From positions 1,312,471 through 1,376,470 of the forward strand of contig OX638379.1 in assembly GCA_951813605.1 (NCBI GenBank): a stretch of DNA of 64,000 nucleotides, read 5' to 3'. The notes under the pieces were generated by a model. The model saw only the letters and a program-made list of their open reading frames with translations. It did not search any database and had not been told where the DNA came from. The number at the start of each line of letters is the position of its first letter. The stretch's first letter is position 1. The DNA is from an uncultured Bryobacterales bacterium. Its GTDB lineage: Bacteria > Acidobacteriota > Terriglobia > Bryobacterales > UBA6623. Of the stretch, positions 52,383-59,331 are shown in pieces. The position numbers and the translations under genes were made by a program.

Positions 52383-53588
52383 TCAAGAGCGGCTCTCGGT
52401 AAATAGCGCCCTCACCCGTTCGCCGACGATCGCATCCTCCCCAGGCCGCAACATCCACGTCGAGATTCGCAACTGGCCCTCGCCCAAGCGCGCCAGGCCG
52501 ATGGGCGGATCGCCTTCGATGAGCCTTTGCTTCGCGTCGTTTGCGGTTAGACTCTGTTCGTCCTCGTTCCAGCTCACGGTCACATGCGGCACGCGGTTGT
52601 GGATCTCGGGCACCTCTTTCACGCAAACGACGGCGGGCAGGCCTTTGAGCATGTCGAGCAGCGTCGCGGCTCGCTGATCCAACTCGCGCCTTTCCGCTTC
52701 GTGGTCGAGGGCTAGGTAGCGATCGACGGCGGCTACCAATCCGATGATCTCTTCTTTGCCGACCTTCATCCCGCGGCCGATACCCGAGTGCGGACTGATT
52801 GCCTTGCGCGCCGCCTCCACAAGATCGGGGCGGCCTAGGAGCAGGCCCGAGGCCTGCGGGCCGAGCAAGCCCTTCCCTCCAGAAAAGATCACCATGTCGA
52901 ACCCCTCATCGACATAGAGGCGCAGCCTTTCCACCGGCGGGACGTCCGCCGCTGCGTCGTTCATCGTCGGAATGCCGTGAGCCTGGGCGACCTCAATCCA
53001 TTCGTCGCGGCTGATCCGCCCATGCGGGTCAGCCTTGTTGAGGAAGAACATCATCGCCGTCCGCTCGTTGATCGCGTCCTCCAACTCTTCCCGAGTTTCA
53101 ACCCAAATGATGGTCGTGCCGACGAGCAACATCTGCGCCTCGTAGCCGCTACGGTGCGAGCGTTGCTGGATGATCTCATTCCTCATGCCGGTTGTGTCGG
53201 GCAAGGCTCTGAGGTTCCGGTCCTCTCCCCCGGTGACGCAGGCGGCCGTTCCGCAAGTAATGGCCGAAGCGGCTCCGCAGGAGATCATCGCCGCCGGAAC
53301 GCCGATCGCCTTCGCGATGTGCTGACCGGCCTTGAGCTGCAGCTCGGGAAGCGGCACGAAGCTCCGCGACGCCGTGGTCATGGCATCGACGACCTCGGCG
53401 GGCATAATGCAACCGCCCATGATAGTGACGGTGCCCCAAGCGTTGATCGCCGGCCTCACGCCAAGGTTGAGGTATACGTTTTCCGGCGCGCTTCCGTAAG
53501 CAGCGGTACCGTCGCACGAAGCCGCGCACATCGCCGCGGTGGCAGGCACGGACTGTAATACTCTTCTGCGAGTGATGTTGCTCGGCAT
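52383..53588 (-). CDS. Tat-exported SelA-like PLP-dependent enzyme
   Basis: A 401-aa fold-type I PLP enzyme of the SelA/DgaE-like group (selenocysteine synthase-related; includes D-glucosaminate-6-phosphate ammonia-lyase). Features are LNLGVRPAINAWGTVTIMGG, AAMISCGAASAITCGTAAC, IPTMNDAAADVPPVE (PLP-binding aspartate) and IFSGGKGLLGPQASGLLLG with Schiff-base K239. The N-terminus ITRRRVLQSVPATAAMCAASC is Tat-like, unexpected for this usually cytoplasmic family. It is the last gene of a minus-strand operon, 14 bp after a sulfatase and further downstream of GH109. A lyase or aminotransferase acting on an amino sugar or amino acid is inferred. Confidence 0.82.
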   Translation of the reverse strand: MPSNITRRRVLQSVPATAAMCAASCDGTAAYGSAPENVYLNLGVRPAINAWGTVTIMGGCIMPAEVVDAMTTASRSFVPLPELQLKAGQHIAKAIGVPAAMISCGAASAITCGTAACVTGGEDRNLRALPDTTGMRNEIIQQRSHRSGYEAQMLLVGTTIIWVETREELEDAINERTAMMFFLNKADPHGRISRDEWIEVAQAHGIPTMNDAAADVPPVERLRLYVDEGFDMVIFSGGKGLLGPQASGLLLGRPDLVEAARKAISPHSGIGRGMKVGKEEIIGLVAAVDRYLALDHEAERRELDQRAATLLDMLKGLPAVVCVKEVPEIHNRVPHVTVSWNEDEQSLTANDAKQRLIEGDPPIGLARLGEGQLRISTWMLRPGEDAIVGERVRALFTESRS

Positions 53589-53602
53589 GGTCTCGTCCGT
53601 CG

Positions 53603-54997
53603 CTAGTTCATCGATCTCCGCCCTAGCTTCACAGCCAGTTCATCTCGATGCTGGTCGCCCCAGCTGGCGAGCTTCGCCGCCAGTTCCTTCACGACCGCCT
53701 GCCGGTCTGAGTACAAGTTCTGAGTCTCGCCGGGATCATTCTTCATGTCGTACAACTCGTCAACACGCTTCTGAGGTCTCGCCGGAAAGTCGCGCAGGAT
53801 CAGCTTCCAGCGCTCGGTACGCAGGGCTCGCTCCTCGAATAGGATCCCGTCGATGCCCCTCTGCGAGATGTTTTGGATGACGATCTCCCGGTTCCATTCG
53901 TCTCGTCCGCTAAGCAGGTCGGGTATCAGGCTGCGGTCCGAGTATTCCTCGTCAAGCCGGCCATAGAGACCAGCGGCATGCATGATCGTCGGCATCAGGT
54001 CCACGGAGCTTACGCCAGACTGCCAGACGACTCCAGCGGGGAGGACCCTGGGGTAGTGCATGATCAGCGGCAGGCGGGCGGCTTCATCGTATGAAATGCT
54101 CATGCCGGCTACTGTTCCAAGGCGATCGATCCACGTCCTTCCGTGCTCAGTGGTGAGGATGATGAATGTGTTGTCGAGGACATTGCTGCGTCGCAGTGCA
54201 TCAACCATTCGCCCGATCTCTTCGTCGAGCGCCGTGACCGAAGCGTAGTATTCCTCGTGCTCCACGTTCTTGCCCTTGTAGGGTTCAAGGAACCTCTTCG
54301 GGGGGTTATTCGGCTCGTGTGGCGAGTAGTAGGACTGGTACAGAAAAAAGGGCCGGTCAGCGTTCTCCTCGATAAACTCGACGGCAATGTCAGTCTGGAC
54401 GGTGGGCCTGTAGGGTGACTTGAAAGGCTCGCCCAGCCAATGATGGAGTAGCGAGTTGAAGCTCTTCCAGACGTCGAAGAACCCGGGGTTCCTTTCTCCC
54501 AGATGCCACTTGCCAACGTGCCCCGTGCGGTAGCCGGCGTTATTGAGGAAGTGCGGGAAGTTCGCCCATAAGTCGAATCGCGGATCGGCGAATGGATCGG
54601 GAATCGGTTCCTGGTACACGTTGTTCGACCCGTTCGGCACGAAGGGATACACATTCTTCTGCATCCCATGCTCGTGTGGATACTTGCCCGTGAGAATCGA
54701 GGCTCGACAGGGGCCGCACAATGGCTGCGGCGCGTAGCAATTGTCGAAACGGAGGCCGCCTGCGGCCAGTCGATCAATGTTCGGCGTGTGGACATCCGAG
54801 CGTCCGTATGCGCCGATCGCGTCTCGGCGACACTTGTCAAGTAGGATAAACAGGAAATTCGGAGGGTTCAGGCCGCCACCCGGGTCGGTATCCGAACCGG
54901 TTTGGGCCGAGGCCCCTGGGGCCGCCGACGCGCCCGCGAATATTCCCAGTCCCCCCAATGCGTTGAGAATCGAGCGTCGCTTAACTGTTTCAGGCAT
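53603..54997 (-). CDS. Tat-exported sulfatase with CGPCR motif
   Basis: A 464-aa sulfatase. The Tat-like leader is VKRRSILNALGGLGIFAGASAAPGASA. The formylglycine motif is C94-G-P-C97-R98, satisfying CxPxR but with an extra cysteine at the variable position. Metal ligands are atypical: LLDKCRRDAIGAYG has Lys where Asp or Gln is common, and the second site reads LTTEHGRTW with Glu in place of Asp. The rest is normal (KWHLGERNPGF, FFLYQSYYSPHEPNNPP). It sits between GH109 (12 bp) and the PLP enzyme (14 bp), suggesting desulfation of the glycan that GH109 trims. Confidence 0.88.
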   Translation of the reverse strand: MPETVKRRSILNALGGLGIFAGASAAPGASAQTGSDTDPGGGLNPPNFLFILLDKCRRDAIGAYGRSDVHTPNIDRLAAGGLRFDNCYAPQPLCGPCRASILTGKYPHEHGMQKNVYPFVPNGSNNVYQEPIPDPFADPRFDLWANFPHFLNNAGYRTGHVGKWHLGERNPGFFDVWKSFNSLLHHWLGEPFKSPYRPTVQTDIAVEFIEENADRPFFLYQSYYSPHEPNNPPKRFLEPYKGKNVEHEEYYASVTALDEEIGRMVDALRRSNVLDNTFIILTTEHGRTWIDRLGTVAGMSISYDEAARLPLIMHYPRVLPAGVVWQSGVSSVDLMPTIMHAAGLYGRLDEEYSDRSLIPDLLSGRDEWNREIVIQNISQRGIDGILFEERALRTERWKLILRDFPARPQKRVDELYDMKNDPGETQNLYSDRQAVVKELAAKLASWGDQHRDELAVKLGRRSMN

Positions 54998-55009
54998 GAC
55001 TTCCTTCCG

Positions 55010-56338
55010 TTATCCCCACTGCCAGCGCAACTCGAACCTCGGAGTCACCTTCCACTTGCCCCTGGAAAAGTCCGGCATCTCCACCGACTTGGACTTGCCG
55101 GCGATCGATTGCTCGCTCAGGGGTGCGATAGCGCTCCAGGTCACAGCGTCCACGATCGACACGGGCGGCGTTGTTCCTTGCCGCAAGCTTTCGGTCCAGC
55201 CGCGCAGCTCCATCCAATCCGCGCCGCTGTGTCCGAACCGTAGCGCCCGCTCGCTGTACATCTTCCAGATGGGATGGTCGAACTCGTCAAGGAACGGGTT
55301 CAGCGAATGCCACTGACGGGCATCGATCGCCTGCCCGTCCCAATGCCGCTCCTGCAACCAGATCGAGCCTTCTCCGGGGAACGGCCAGCGGACCATGCCC
55401 TTCGTGCCGTGATACTTGTGTGCATCGTCGCGGGGATGCCAGCTTTGAGTGTCGTGGAAGTTCATTGCCGTGCGACCGTCTTCCAGCTGCAATAGGACTG
55501 TCGTGCGGTCGGCGTTGGCGTAAGCCCGTTTTGCGTTCGGGTGATCGGGGCCCCACATGTCCGCGGCGTATTGGTTCATACCTCGGGAGACGCCGCCCAT
55601 CGCGGTCAACGACTCAATACGCGTCCCATGGTTGATGTCCATCAACATCGCGACTGGGGCGAATTGATGAGTGGGATACAGGTTCCCATTGCGGGTCACT
55701 GTGTGCTCTCCACGCCACCTCAGCTCACCCTTGTTCGCGAATCGCGAGTCGAACTTCGTACCCCGCACGTCGTGGCCATAGCCGGATTCGCAATGTACGA
55801 TCTCTCCCAGCAGGGCAGCGCGCACGATGTTCAGCACCGCCAGCGGTTCGCGGCGGTACACCCAGTTCTCGAGCATCGTTGCCGACACACCGGTCCGCTC
55901 AGCCGTTTCGACTAGCTGCCAGCACTCGTCGATCGTGATAGCCGCCGGGACCTCGATGGCGGCGGCTATTCCTGCTTCGAGGGCGGCGACAGCCATTGTC
56001 GCGTGCCAATGCCAGGGCGTCGCGACAATCACGCCGTCCAAGTCTTCGCGGTCGAGCAGGCGGCGGTAATCCTCGGGCCCGCGCGCATAGACCGCTGGCT
56101 GTGGTCTCCCGGCGTCCTGGCAGATCTTGCGCGCTCTCGCCGCCGCATTGTCGTCGGCGTCGCAAACAGCCGCGACTGCGACGCCCGGGAGATCGAGCAA
56201 TGGCCGCAACAAGGACGATCCGCGGAGGCCGGCGCCAATCATCCCCACGCGAACAGGGGTCTCAGCGGCCCGCGCCTCAGCGGAGGCAAGAGCGGCGGTG
56301 ACGCCCACGAACGTCCTTCGGTCGATGCCATTCCTCAT
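55010..56338 (-). CDS. Tat-exported GH109-type NAD-dependent glycosidase (Gfo/Idh/MocA fold)
   Basis: A 442-aa protein of the Gfo/Idh/MocA fold that matches glycoside hydrolase family 109. The usual EKP is E129-V-P131, followed by DECWQLVETAERTGVSATMLE, NIVRAALLGEIVHCESGYGHD, RNGNLYPTH (216-224) and MLMDINHGTR, all typical of GH109 rather than ordinary oxidoreductases. GH109 uses tightly bound NAD+ in a redox-elimination mechanism and includes alpha-N-acetylgalactosaminidases. Leader DRRTFVGVTAALASAEARA is Tat-like, consistent with export of a folded, NAD-loaded enzyme. It is the first gene of a three-gene operon. Confidence 0.86.
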   Translation of the reverse strand: MRNGIDRRTFVGVTAALASAEARAAETPVRVGMIGAGLRGSSLLRPLLDLPGVAVAAVCDADDNAAARARKICQDAGRPQPAVYARGPEDYRRLLDREDLDGVIVATPWHWHATMAVAALEAGIAAAIEVPAAITIDECWQLVETAERTGVSATMLENWVYRREPLAVLNIVRAALLGEIVHCESGYGHDVRGTKFDSRFANKGELRWRGEHTVTRNGNLYPTHQFAPVAMLMDINHGTRIESLTAMGGVSRGMNQYAADMWGPDHPNAKRAYANADRTTVLLQLEDGRTAMNFHDTQSWHPRDDAHKYHGTKGMVRWPFPGEGSIWLQERHWDGQAIDARQWHSLNPFLDEFDHPIWKMYSERALRFGHSGADWMELRGWTESLRQGTTPPVSIVDAVTWSAIAPLSEQSIAGKSKSVEMPDFSRGKWKVTPRFELRWQWG

Positions 56339-56492
56339 TGGTTTTGCTGGCGGCTTGATCGGCGCCGGGCCCAGTCCGGACGTATCCTACCAGAGGTTTG
56401 GGGCGCGGTTGCGGAGTCGGGTCGCACAAGGAAGTGAGTGGCCGTAGCGGTGACACGAGCAATTTCCTACGTCTAGAATCGAGTCGCTTGTA

Positions 56493-57200
56493 TTGGCCCA
56501 GGATGACCTCCACGTGCGCGCCGTTGTGATGGACGCTCACGTCCAATTGATGAGCCGTTCGCTGCTGAACGGGCTCGACATCGGTTCAAAGAGTGCCTGG
56601 TCGGCACGTGGACGTGCCGCGCTTGGCCGCCGGCAGGGTGAATGCCGTTTTCCCCTCGGTGTACCCTCCCTGAGCCCTCTATCGGGCGCGCCCCGAGCTG
56701 AAGAACGCAATTCGCGTCATCGAACTGGCTCTCGATCAGATCGGACGGAACAGTGGCGCGGTAGAACTGGCGCTGCACGCCTTCGACCTCGGGCGTATCG
56801 CGGGGTCAGGGGAGATCGCCGCATTCGTCGATCGACAAGGGCCGCTCGACCTCGGTGAGGATCTGAATGTGTTGCGGGCGCTTCATCGGCTTGGGCCGCG
56901 CTCGTCTTAGCTTACCGTCCACAACTAAGCGAATGAGGTTGCCGATTCCTGCTGCGATGTCTCGAAATGCGGGGGCTGAATGCGCACACGAATAAAGTGA
57001 TCCGTGAAATGAATCGGCTCGGTATGGTGATCAATGTCGCTCACGGTCTTGAGGAAGCGATTTTCCAAACGGCGGAAGCGAGCGACGACCCCGAGATCTA
57101 GACCGACGGCGGCTTTCGGCATTTGTCGACACTGGGCGCTTGATCAGCGAGGCGGCCACCAAGGCCGTTACGGCGAATGGAGGCGCGACGGCTCCCCCAA
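56493..57200 (+). pseudogene. Decayed M19 (renal-type) dipeptidase
   Basis: Fragments of one protein appear in order but in different plus-strand frames: VVMDAHVQLMSRSLLNGLDIG (about 56,525-56,590), then RHVDVPRLAAGRVNAVF (about 56,600), ALYRARPELKNAIRVIELAL and LNVLRALHRLGPRSS, then LTVHN-stop-ANEVADS near 56,910-56,950, then MNRLGMVINVAHGLEEAIF (about 57,009), and finally LISEAATKAVTANGG (about 57,140). These correspond in order to family-M19 dipeptidase blocks (DgHnD, HvDlPRl, LGvRyltLTHnraN, MNrLGMviDvSH, NGG). At least three in-frame stops and several frame changes make it non-functional. Confidence 0.75.
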
Positions 57201-57294: not shown

Positions 57295-57960
57295 CTAAGT
57301 GATTGGTGCTACCCGCACAGTCAACGACATGTGTCTCCGGATGCCCCCAGAGTTCCCCCTAACCGGTCGCTGCACCCTGACACCCTCGAGACCAGGCCTC
57401 CGTGAGACGTGGTTTGCGATGAATCGCTCGAGTGATCCCTTGGCTCGCCGAAGTCTTCCTTGGACAAGCTGGTAGCGGAGCCGGAGGACCACCTGGGCAA
57501 TGGTCTCTCCGGCATGCTCCGCGGTCCAGAGGTCATGAAGGTCCTGTTGAGCGAGAAGCGCAACATCGTCACGCTCGGCCTTCTCCGCCTCGACCTTGGC
57601 TAGCTCCGCACGTGCTCTAGCTGTGGCGAGGACCGCGATCACTTGGCTATAGGGAGGTTTGCTCTGCATGTCCTCCGACCGAGCGATCAGCTTGCTCAGT
57701 TTTCCCGCCCGTCTGGTGGCCCGACCGTACACTCGATAGCCGGGATGATGGAAGAACCCGGGTCGTGAGCGAGATAATCGGCAGCGTTCCCCGGCCTCCC
57801 CGCGCGCACAGGGGGTCCACCTGGAAGCCTAAGAAGAAAAGCAGCAGACCCACGGCGGCTTCGAACTCCTTCGCATTGCGCCATTCGTCGTCCCGCAGCT
57901 TCTCGACGAACTCGTGACCGCTTGAGTCCAAAACGGTGTGAGCTCTCATCCGGTGATTGG
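57295..57960 (-). pseudogene. Decayed PD-(D/E)XK nuclease-like gene
   Basis: On the minus strand three successive frames give one coherent protein: EWRNAKEFEAAVGLLLFFLG then FQVDPL (ending about 57,810), PGNAADYLAHDPG and IIPAIECTVGPPDG (about 57,790-57,710), and KLSKLIARSEDMQSK followed by a long helical tail rich in Ala/Glu (to about 57,400). The order FE-x-A-V / D-Y-L-A / E-C-T / K-L-x-K-L is that of restriction-endonuclease-like domains in which the core is D...E-C-T with following lysines. Two frameshifts break it. The gene it came from and its role are unknown. Confidence 0.55.
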
Positions 57961-58029
57961 AGCCTGCTCGGGGCACAGACACGCAGTCCACACACCGGTC
58001 TCCGATGAGGATGGGGTTACTAGGCTTTG

Positions 58030-59331
58030 GTGGACAGTTAAGGCTGCGGCAGGTGCTGAGGCTCGAACAGTGCCGCACCATGGTGTCGACGAGCAGCAAG
58101 GTGCCGCTCGAGGTGACCTGAGGCATGTGCTGGTGATAGAACCAAGACAACTCGCCCTCCTGGGTGAGCAGGTTCGGCTACAGGTGGGGGGCGGGCCGCT
58201 GTGGTCGCCCCGGGTCCAGACGATTTCCCCGGTCTTTCGGTCCACCTTGACGACCACGTCCTGCATCCGAAAGGAGATCAGGAGAGAGTCGGCCCTCTCG
58301 TCGTGGAAGAATCCGTTGCCATGCGACCAGTCCCAAGCTCTTGGGAAACCCCGGTTGATCCAGTTAGCGGTAAGAGTCTCGTACCCGATCCGGTAGGGAT
58401 CGATATGATCGAGCGCCTTCCAGCCCCAGACAACCTCGCCGGCACGCGTGAACTCGACGATCACGTCGCCCATCACTCGCTGGCGCTTCCGCAGCGCTGC
58501 TGGATCGGTTTCGCTGGTGTACCAGTTGTTGTACTCGCGGATCTCGGTACCCATCTCGATGAGGTGGCTGTTCGAGAGCTCTTCGATTTCGTGATGCATC
58601 GTCAGCGTCGGAATCGGAATGCCGTCTGCTTCTCCCCGCAGGCGATCTGAGGCCTACCAGTTTCCGATACGATTGCCGAGAACGTCGATCTCAGTGGCTC
58701 GGTTGTCGGTGGTCACGAATACGAGGTTGCCGTTCCGGAGGGTTTCGACGTCACTCATCCTGGCGTTCGACTGGTAGGCGCACACAATCTCGCCGTCGTG
58801 GTCGATCGCCGCCAGCAGCCCGAAATTCGCTCCCATGCGACGGCTGCGCTGCCCCAGCATCCGGGTTAGCACGCGCCTGAGGCTCAGCAGCGAGTAGCCC
58901 GGTTCCATCTTCTCCAGCTTGCTCACCGTGACCCTCACCGGAGGAATCCGCGTCGGGTCGTCTGGTATTTCTGGCGTCAAGAACTCCAGTTGCGTTGGTG
59001 CGTCTGCTGTTTCGCCCCACGAGTTGGCGATTCTGACGCCGATCCGGTGCGACCTGCCGTACTTCATGCCCACAACCGGCAGGCCCTCGGCGGGATTTCG
59101 CTCCGTTGGGTACGAAAGCGTCCACTGGCGCTCGCCATCGGAAACGGTGAGCGCTGTTTGGACGGGTGCGGACGTCTCGAACGAGACGGTCGCCGCAAGC
59201 GGGACTGCAGGGTTTGGATTCGGCCGAAGAGCAGGCTGGGTCTGAAACGTTGGTTCGCCGGCCAATACGGGGCAGGGGACGATTGCGGCGGCAAGGACCG
59301 CTCAAGACAATGCGCTGAATCGCGGGCTCAA
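58030..59331 (-). pseudogene. Decayed arylsulfotransferase (ASST-type) gene
   Basis: A minus-strand reading starts at TTG with signal-like SPRFSALS-stop-AVLAAAIVPCPVLA, continues through about 200 residues (FLTPEIPDDPTRIPPVRVTV, GLLAAIDHDGEIVCAYQSN, LRNGNLVFVTTDNRATEIDV), meets an in-frame TAG at 58654, and goes on in the same frame: IEELSNSHLIEMGTEIREYN, RKRQRVMGDVIVEFTRAGEVVW, TGEIVWTRGDHSG. A frameshift near 58,180 leads to LLTQEGELSWFYHQHMPQV and GTLLLVDTM. The order (DHdGeivW, LrNGNlv, DviveFtr.G.vvW, GdHSG, QHmpqv..GtLLLvD) is that of arylsulfotransferases. Two or more stops and a frameshift show it is dead. Confidence 0.75.

Follow-up and report, generated by a model that had tools for sequence, protein, structure and literature searches.

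A genus-conserved GH109-sulfatase gene pair and a putatively relocated gene for an exported-type PLP enzyme in a Bryobacterales bacterium

As a rule, PLP lyases and Rid proteins, like the amidohydrolases that supply them, are regarded as cytoplasmic machinery; PvdN is a PLP enzyme that is exported via Tat. PvdN, a periplasmic, O2-using enzyme of pyoverdine maturation (PMC7497351), is a precedent for a fold-type I PLP enzyme in the periplasm, although its role differs from the one considered here. The Ong pathway of Pseudoalteromonas, which serves the use of oxidised chitin, combines the deacetylase OngB, the PLP deaminase OngC (fold type III) and the essential RidA protein OngD, and processes the N-acetyl aminosugar acid N-acetylglucosaminate in the cytoplasm without prior phosphorylation (PMC9537276). 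The nearest relatives of solved structure to the enzyme considered here are DgaE (7lc0) and Cap15 (8t7j), a Streptomyces antibiotic-biosynthesis enzyme. Cap15 is a PLP-dependent monooxygenase-decarboxylase whose known substrate is a beta-hydroxy-alpha-amino acid (PMC7497351). The GH109 N-acetylgalactosaminidases are represented by structures 2ixa and 6t2b; the latter is AmGH109A, for which the roles of Tyr226, His259 and His404 have been described (PMC10755693).

The three genes and their predicted products

The window, a stretch of 64,000 nucleotides from an uncultured Bryobacterales bacterium whose genome is a single 6.19-Mb contig, contains three intact minus-strand ORFs. These encode a DgaE/Cap15/SelA-like PLP enzyme of fold type I (52383..53588, 401 aa), an S1-type formylglycine sulfatase (53603..54997, 464 aa) and a GH109-type NAD-dependent glycosidase (55010..56338, 442 aa). 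The PLP and sulfatase genes are separated by 14 bp, the sulfatase and GH109 genes by 12 bp, and a Shine-Dalgarno-like GGAAGGAAG lies ahead of the sulfatase start. An ORF check agreed with the initial annotation on the positions, strand, spacing and co-direction of the three genes, and its family calls (GH109, sulfatase, SelA/DgaE-like PLP enzyme) are backed by Pfam and NCBIfam.

Directly upstream of the GH109 gene, and divergent from it, is a relic of a membrane/renal dipeptidase gene (56487-57125, plus strand). It has in-frame stops and frame changes, and is 60% identical over 129 aa to an intact copy elsewhere in the genome (~915.8-917.0 kb). An arylsulfotransferase-like gene (57946-59265, minus strand) is split into two ORFs, one holding the N-domain (58654-59265) and the other the ASST domain (57946-58599), and is probably frameshifted.

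The GH109 protein matches Glyco_hydro_109_C (141.5 bits, E 2.5e-41) and GFO_IDH_MocA (60 bits), both above cut-off, and its PDB matches are 2ixa (E 1e-86) and 6t2b (E 1.6e-61), with which it shares both domains and the NAD-binding fold. Its GYGHD, YPTH and FGHSG motifs align with Tyr226, His259 and His404 of AmGH109A, so that the catalytic Tyr, the His and the loop His are kept. It differs from the GH109 N-acetylgalactosaminidases in two places. The loop reads FGH[SGNH]G instead of GGHGG, with the loop glycines only partly kept, and the position of 2ixa Tyr307 is occupied by Arg, within a conserved WHPRDDxHKY, throughout the genus clade and also in a relative with 76% identity from genome G006. 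A possible reason for the Arg is that it binds an anionic group of the substrate, and with Arg at this position the enzyme may act on another substrate; its N-acetylgalactosaminidase activity is a prediction. The genome encodes only two GH109_C proteins.

The sulfatase matches Pfam Sulfatase (E 4e-48) and SGSH_C. Carrageenan sulfatases and GlcNAc-6-sulfatases are found among its many PDB relatives, and several S1 subfamilies score alike in phmmer. The formylglycine motif CxPxR is present as C-G-P-C-R at residues 94-98, the fourth place being N, A or T in relatives, and the variants DKCRxD and TTEHG are clade-wide. Seven FGE-family proteins and at least 151 sulfatase genes are encoded in the source genome. 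The high arylsulfatase numbers reported in a guild of sponge symbionts have been connected with sulfated matrix polysaccharides (PMC5649159); an association of the present organism with marine sponges is no more than a guess based on isolate names.

The PLP enzyme has Pfam matches to SelA/Aminotran_5. In the NCBIfam profile search it matched the DgaE families TIGR01437 (187 bits, E 3e-55) and NF047797 (177 bits), missing both cut-offs (385 and 600 bits, respectively), and in the PDB it matched 7lc0 (DgaE; E 6.5e-43) and 8t7j (Cap15; E 1.9e-38). An AF2 model has a pLDDT of 87.7, with the first 34 residues of low confidence as expected for a leader; Foldseek matched this model to Cap15 (E 5e-31) and DgaE (E 7e-31), then to SelA. 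Lys239 and Asp211 (Met1 numbering) are invariant in 132 relatives, DgaE and Cap15, and Ser236-Gly237, Pro244, Gly248, Arg272, Lys275 and Glu279 are also invariant in the relatives. DgaE thus shares with the window enzyme its fold, a full-length alignment and the PLP Lys and Asp, but is only ~30% identical to it, and a supported branch separates the two. In the alignment the solved DgaE chain begins at its residue 3, which leaves no comparable leader. Cap15, of the same family and the best structural match, is likewise ~30% identical, and no gene context in common was seen. Elimination of the DgaE type and O2-dependent oxygenation-decarboxylation of the Cap15 type do not appear separable by sequence for this enzyme. 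SelA function was rejected because the SelA N-terminal domain PF12390 is absent (it matches only another gene of the genome) and TIGR00474 scores 35 bits against a cut-off of 268. Decay of the gene was not supported, the ORF being intact and all PLP-site columns kept. In-frame TGA or TAG codons in PLP relatives, considered as selenocysteine codons, are terminal stops.

Tat-like leaders had been proposed for all three proteins, and a twin-arginine motif occurs in each N-terminus. A strict rule (RR followed by an uncharged run of at least 13) is passed by the PLP enzyme and the sulfatase. The uncharged run of the GH109 protein is 12, one residue short, but its leader, I-[DN]-RR-[TA]-FVG...AE[AT]RA, is kept among its orthologues. 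The 30 other long ORFs of the window all fail the rule, and its background rate is 8/1860 internal protein segments (0.4%). The leader of the PLP enzyme is MPSNITRRRVLQSVPATAAMCAASC, with a possible lipobox-like AASC. TatC is encoded in the source genome. These features predict that all three proteins are exported by Tat.

Conservation of the gene pair and origin of the PLP gene

Orthologues of the GH109 (84-88% identity) and the sulfatase (84-87%) are separated by ~15 bp in nine further genus members. A tenth also has the pair, its GH109 gene cut by a contig end, so the two genes are adjacent in 10/10 genomes holding both; G017 has the GH109 gene without a close sulfatase. The conserved block corresponds to 53614..56326 on the minus strand of the window, with DNA similarity to relatives of 83-86%, and the two genes are probably co-transcribed. 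Adjacency as a rule for the whole order was rejected: a same-strand sulfatase is directly beside the GH109 gene in 0/39 more distant loci. The GH109-sulfatase link is real and, as far as tested, confined to the genus. The second GH109 gene of the source genome is also followed, after 126 bp, by a gene for a Tat-type sulfatase. In three genus members an FmdA_AmdA (acetamidase/formamidase-family) gene follows the pair on the same strand (L174 2029-3087; L168/L169).

The third gene does not share this history. The initial annotation described a three-gene cassette and named a lack of adjacency in other genomes as one finding that would refute it; among close homologues in 257 genomes of the order the pair withstood this test, while the trio never recurred, the PLP gene adjoining the pair in the source genome only. 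DNA similarity between the window and other genus members is essentially restricted to the GH109-sulfatase block. It ends at ~53614, where the sulfatase gene has its stop codon; a single alignment out of ten continues for another 50 bp. The DNA of the PLP gene instead matches loci in which an amidohydrolase gene and a PLP gene occur together, at 71-74% identity. Elsewhere in the genus a close PLP orthologue (68%) was found only in G013, on a different contig from the GH109-sulfatase pair of that genome.

Phylogenetic reconstruction places the window PLP enzyme as sister (SH-aLRT 99) to four genes: that of G013, a paralogue at 906 kb in its own genome, and those of loci L036 and L037. All four are directly downstream of a gene of the amidohydrolase/deacetylase family (NCBIfam PRK09237 family). 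The amidohydrolases of these sister loci are 77-100% identical to the L036 reference, and those of L036, L037 and the 906-kb locus carry Tat leaders. Neither an amidohydrolase nor a Rid gene is found beside the PLP gene in the window, so it would belong to such a module by descent and not by context. The simplest history suggested by these comparisons is that a paralogue parted from its amidohydrolase and was relocated behind the GH109-sulfatase pair in this lineage.

The region around the 906-kb paralogue (C1 904.9-917.0 kb; L164 6876-19029) contains three exported SelA-like PLP genes clustered with the Tat amidohydrolase gene. The same cluster encodes a PIG-L/LmbE-like deacetylase with a Tat leader (by eye), an aminotransferase, an MlrC-like protein and a dipeptidase, and is likely a locus dedicated to amino compounds.

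The predicted exported PLP clade and its neighbours

The window enzyme belongs to a well-supported clade of the DgaE/Cap15 family that is predicted to be exported and spans Acidobacteriota, Bacteroidota and Planctomycetota. A branch with SH-aLRT 99 sets all 132 exported-type sequences apart from DgaE, Cap15 and a single cytosolic relative, with the caveat that long branches meet there. RR is present in 98-100% of the exported-type leaders. Most named relatives of the PLP protein are from Acidobacteriota, and the nearest ones include Bryobacterales/Terriglobia bins. Six copies are encoded in the source genome and 14-24 in two genera of the same family (g4 and g5). The open-access literature yielded no report of DgaE-like enzymes or Rid proteins that are exported, and the clade, which is large, is apparently undescribed.

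Neighbours were compared at 80 named loci by counting matches within 3 kb and at 4-10 kb of the PLP gene (binomial p); the loci were picked by similarity to the window protein and are no random sample, and related loci are non-independent. Amidohydrolases were found at 20 loci within 3 kb and at 4 in the outer interval (p 1e-5), Rid proteins at 22 and 5 (p 7e-6), enrichments of ~7-8 times the flanking background. At the same 80 loci sulfatases (6 vs 8, p 0.48) and GH109 (3 vs 3, p 0.43) were not enriched, which also speaks against the proposed cassette. By eye, a Tat or Sec leader is present on 17/17 untruncated amidohydrolases and 21/22 Rid proteins. A sulfatase adjoins the PLP gene in three Bacteroidota loci (L096, L101 and L113), so a sulfatase link does exist in some lineages.

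Other features recur near these genes. The same three loci, which come from Lunatimonas and Cyclobacterium, share a conserved neighbourhood made up of a sulfatase, a Tat PLP enzyme and a Tat protein of 584-599 aa that has no Pfam match. Two flavobacterial amidohydrolase-Rid-PLP clusters each include an RraA-like (aldolase-type) protein with a Sec leader (L099 7162-8127; L103 8478-9455). Proteins of the class V aminotransferase family, several with Tat leaders, are encoded near exported PLP genes at L040, L080, L089 and L118, and are possibly a second exported PLP family in Acidobacteriota. A PLP subtype of ~541 aa has a C-terminal extension past the PLP domain (L007, L033 and C1:912419-913609 of the source genome).

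The partners of the exported clade are of the same three kinds as in the Ong pathway, which suggests that deacylation, water elimination and imine hydrolysis take place outside the cytoplasm. OngB and OngC are predicted to be cytoplasmic, whereas the partners of the exported clade have export leaders; OngC is of fold type III, whereas the window enzyme is of fold type I with a Tat leader. The exported set would therefore work like the Ong pathway without being a member of it. Tentatively, and at somewhat less than even odds, we propose a complete extracytoplasmic nitrogen-stripping module in Acidobacteriota, Planctomycetota and Bacteroidota. It would consist of three exported proteins, namely an amidohydrolase, a PLP beta-eliminating lyase and a Rid enamine/imine deaminase, joined in some flavobacteria by an exported RraA-like aldolase. 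Before uptake it would deacylate and deaminate N-acyl aminosugar acids or D-amino acids, and in relatives of the strain it would have multiplied to ~24 PLP paralogues per genome.

Proposed mechanism and competing explanations

The reading that we prefer, with a probability of roughly 0.5, is that the locus joins a genus-conserved GH109-sulfatase pair to a relocated member of an exported deacylation-deamination module. It is built on the gene content, leaders, conservation, phylogeny and neighbour enrichment observed above, and from these we infer export, substrates, reaction order and co-transcription. The GH109 enzyme would release a terminal sugar of the N-acetylhexosamine type through NAD-dependent oxidation, elimination and hydration. 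With the formylglycine sulfatase removing a sulfate ester, the two could act together outside the cytoplasm to trim a sulfated amino-sugar glycan. In the parent module the substrate would be an N-acyl amino acid, probably a beta-hydroxy one, e.g. an N-acetyl aminosugar acid, whose amino group the amidohydrolase would set free. Elimination of water by the PLP enzyme would then give an enamine/imine, and the Rid protein would speed its hydrolysis to a 2-keto acid and ammonia. The window paralogue, its amidohydrolase neighbour lost, is presumably under the promoter of the GH109-sulfatase pair.

An accidental juxtaposition in a decaying, rearranged region, with a PLP product that has no functional link to the pair, is unlikely but deserves to be taken seriously. 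It would account for the end of DNA similarity at the sulfatase stop, for the dipeptidase relic just upstream of GH109 and for the split arylsulfotransferase-like gene beyond; against it, the PLP ORF is intact with every PLP-site column kept, and the 14-bp gap suggests translation from one message. Considerably more doubtful is the single dedicated periplasmic route for sulfated amino sugars in this species that was initially envisaged. The common strand, the 12-14 bp gaps, the three Tat leaders and the intactness of all genes agree with it, and the clade-wide Arg in place of Tyr307 could bind an anionic group. The PLP gene, however, is beside the pair in the source genome only, and with at least 151 sulfatases in ~5200 genes, chance alone would place a sulfatase on the same strand next to one or more of the six PLP genes with a probability of ~0.16-0.24. 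Nor does the order of action originally proposed close chemically, because the substrate of DgaE-type enzymes is a free 2-amino acid, e.g. an aminosugar acid; a released N-acetylhexosamine therefore needs C1 oxidation and deacetylation first, and the trio encodes neither step. The amidohydrolase at 906 kb could supply the missing deacetylation.

The chemistry of the PLP enzyme could also be of another kind. As an O2-dependent, Cap15-like monooxygenase-decarboxylase it would convert a beta-hydroxy-alpha-amino acid to a carboxamide outside the cytoplasm, and amidases or amidohydrolases would then process the amide. The best Foldseek match is to Cap15, as good as that to DgaE, PvdN is itself a periplasmic O2-using PLP enzyme (PMC7497351), and L036 has an Amidase gene upstream of its amidohydrolase-PLP pair. 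By sequence, however, DgaE is slightly ahead of Cap15 and NCBIfam calls DgaE, and Rid partners would suit a lyase that releases an enamine/imine better than an oxygenase, so we consider the oxygenase improbable.

The conserved GH109-sulfatase pair is a defined target for learning how these bacteria handle sulfated glycans. The exported PLP clade is large and has multiplied in some genomes. If the exported set is as proposed, ammonia would be stripped from amino compounds outside the cytoplasm and the carbon skeleton imported afterwards; why such a process needs PLP and an enamine-quenching protein at that site would then be a question in itself.
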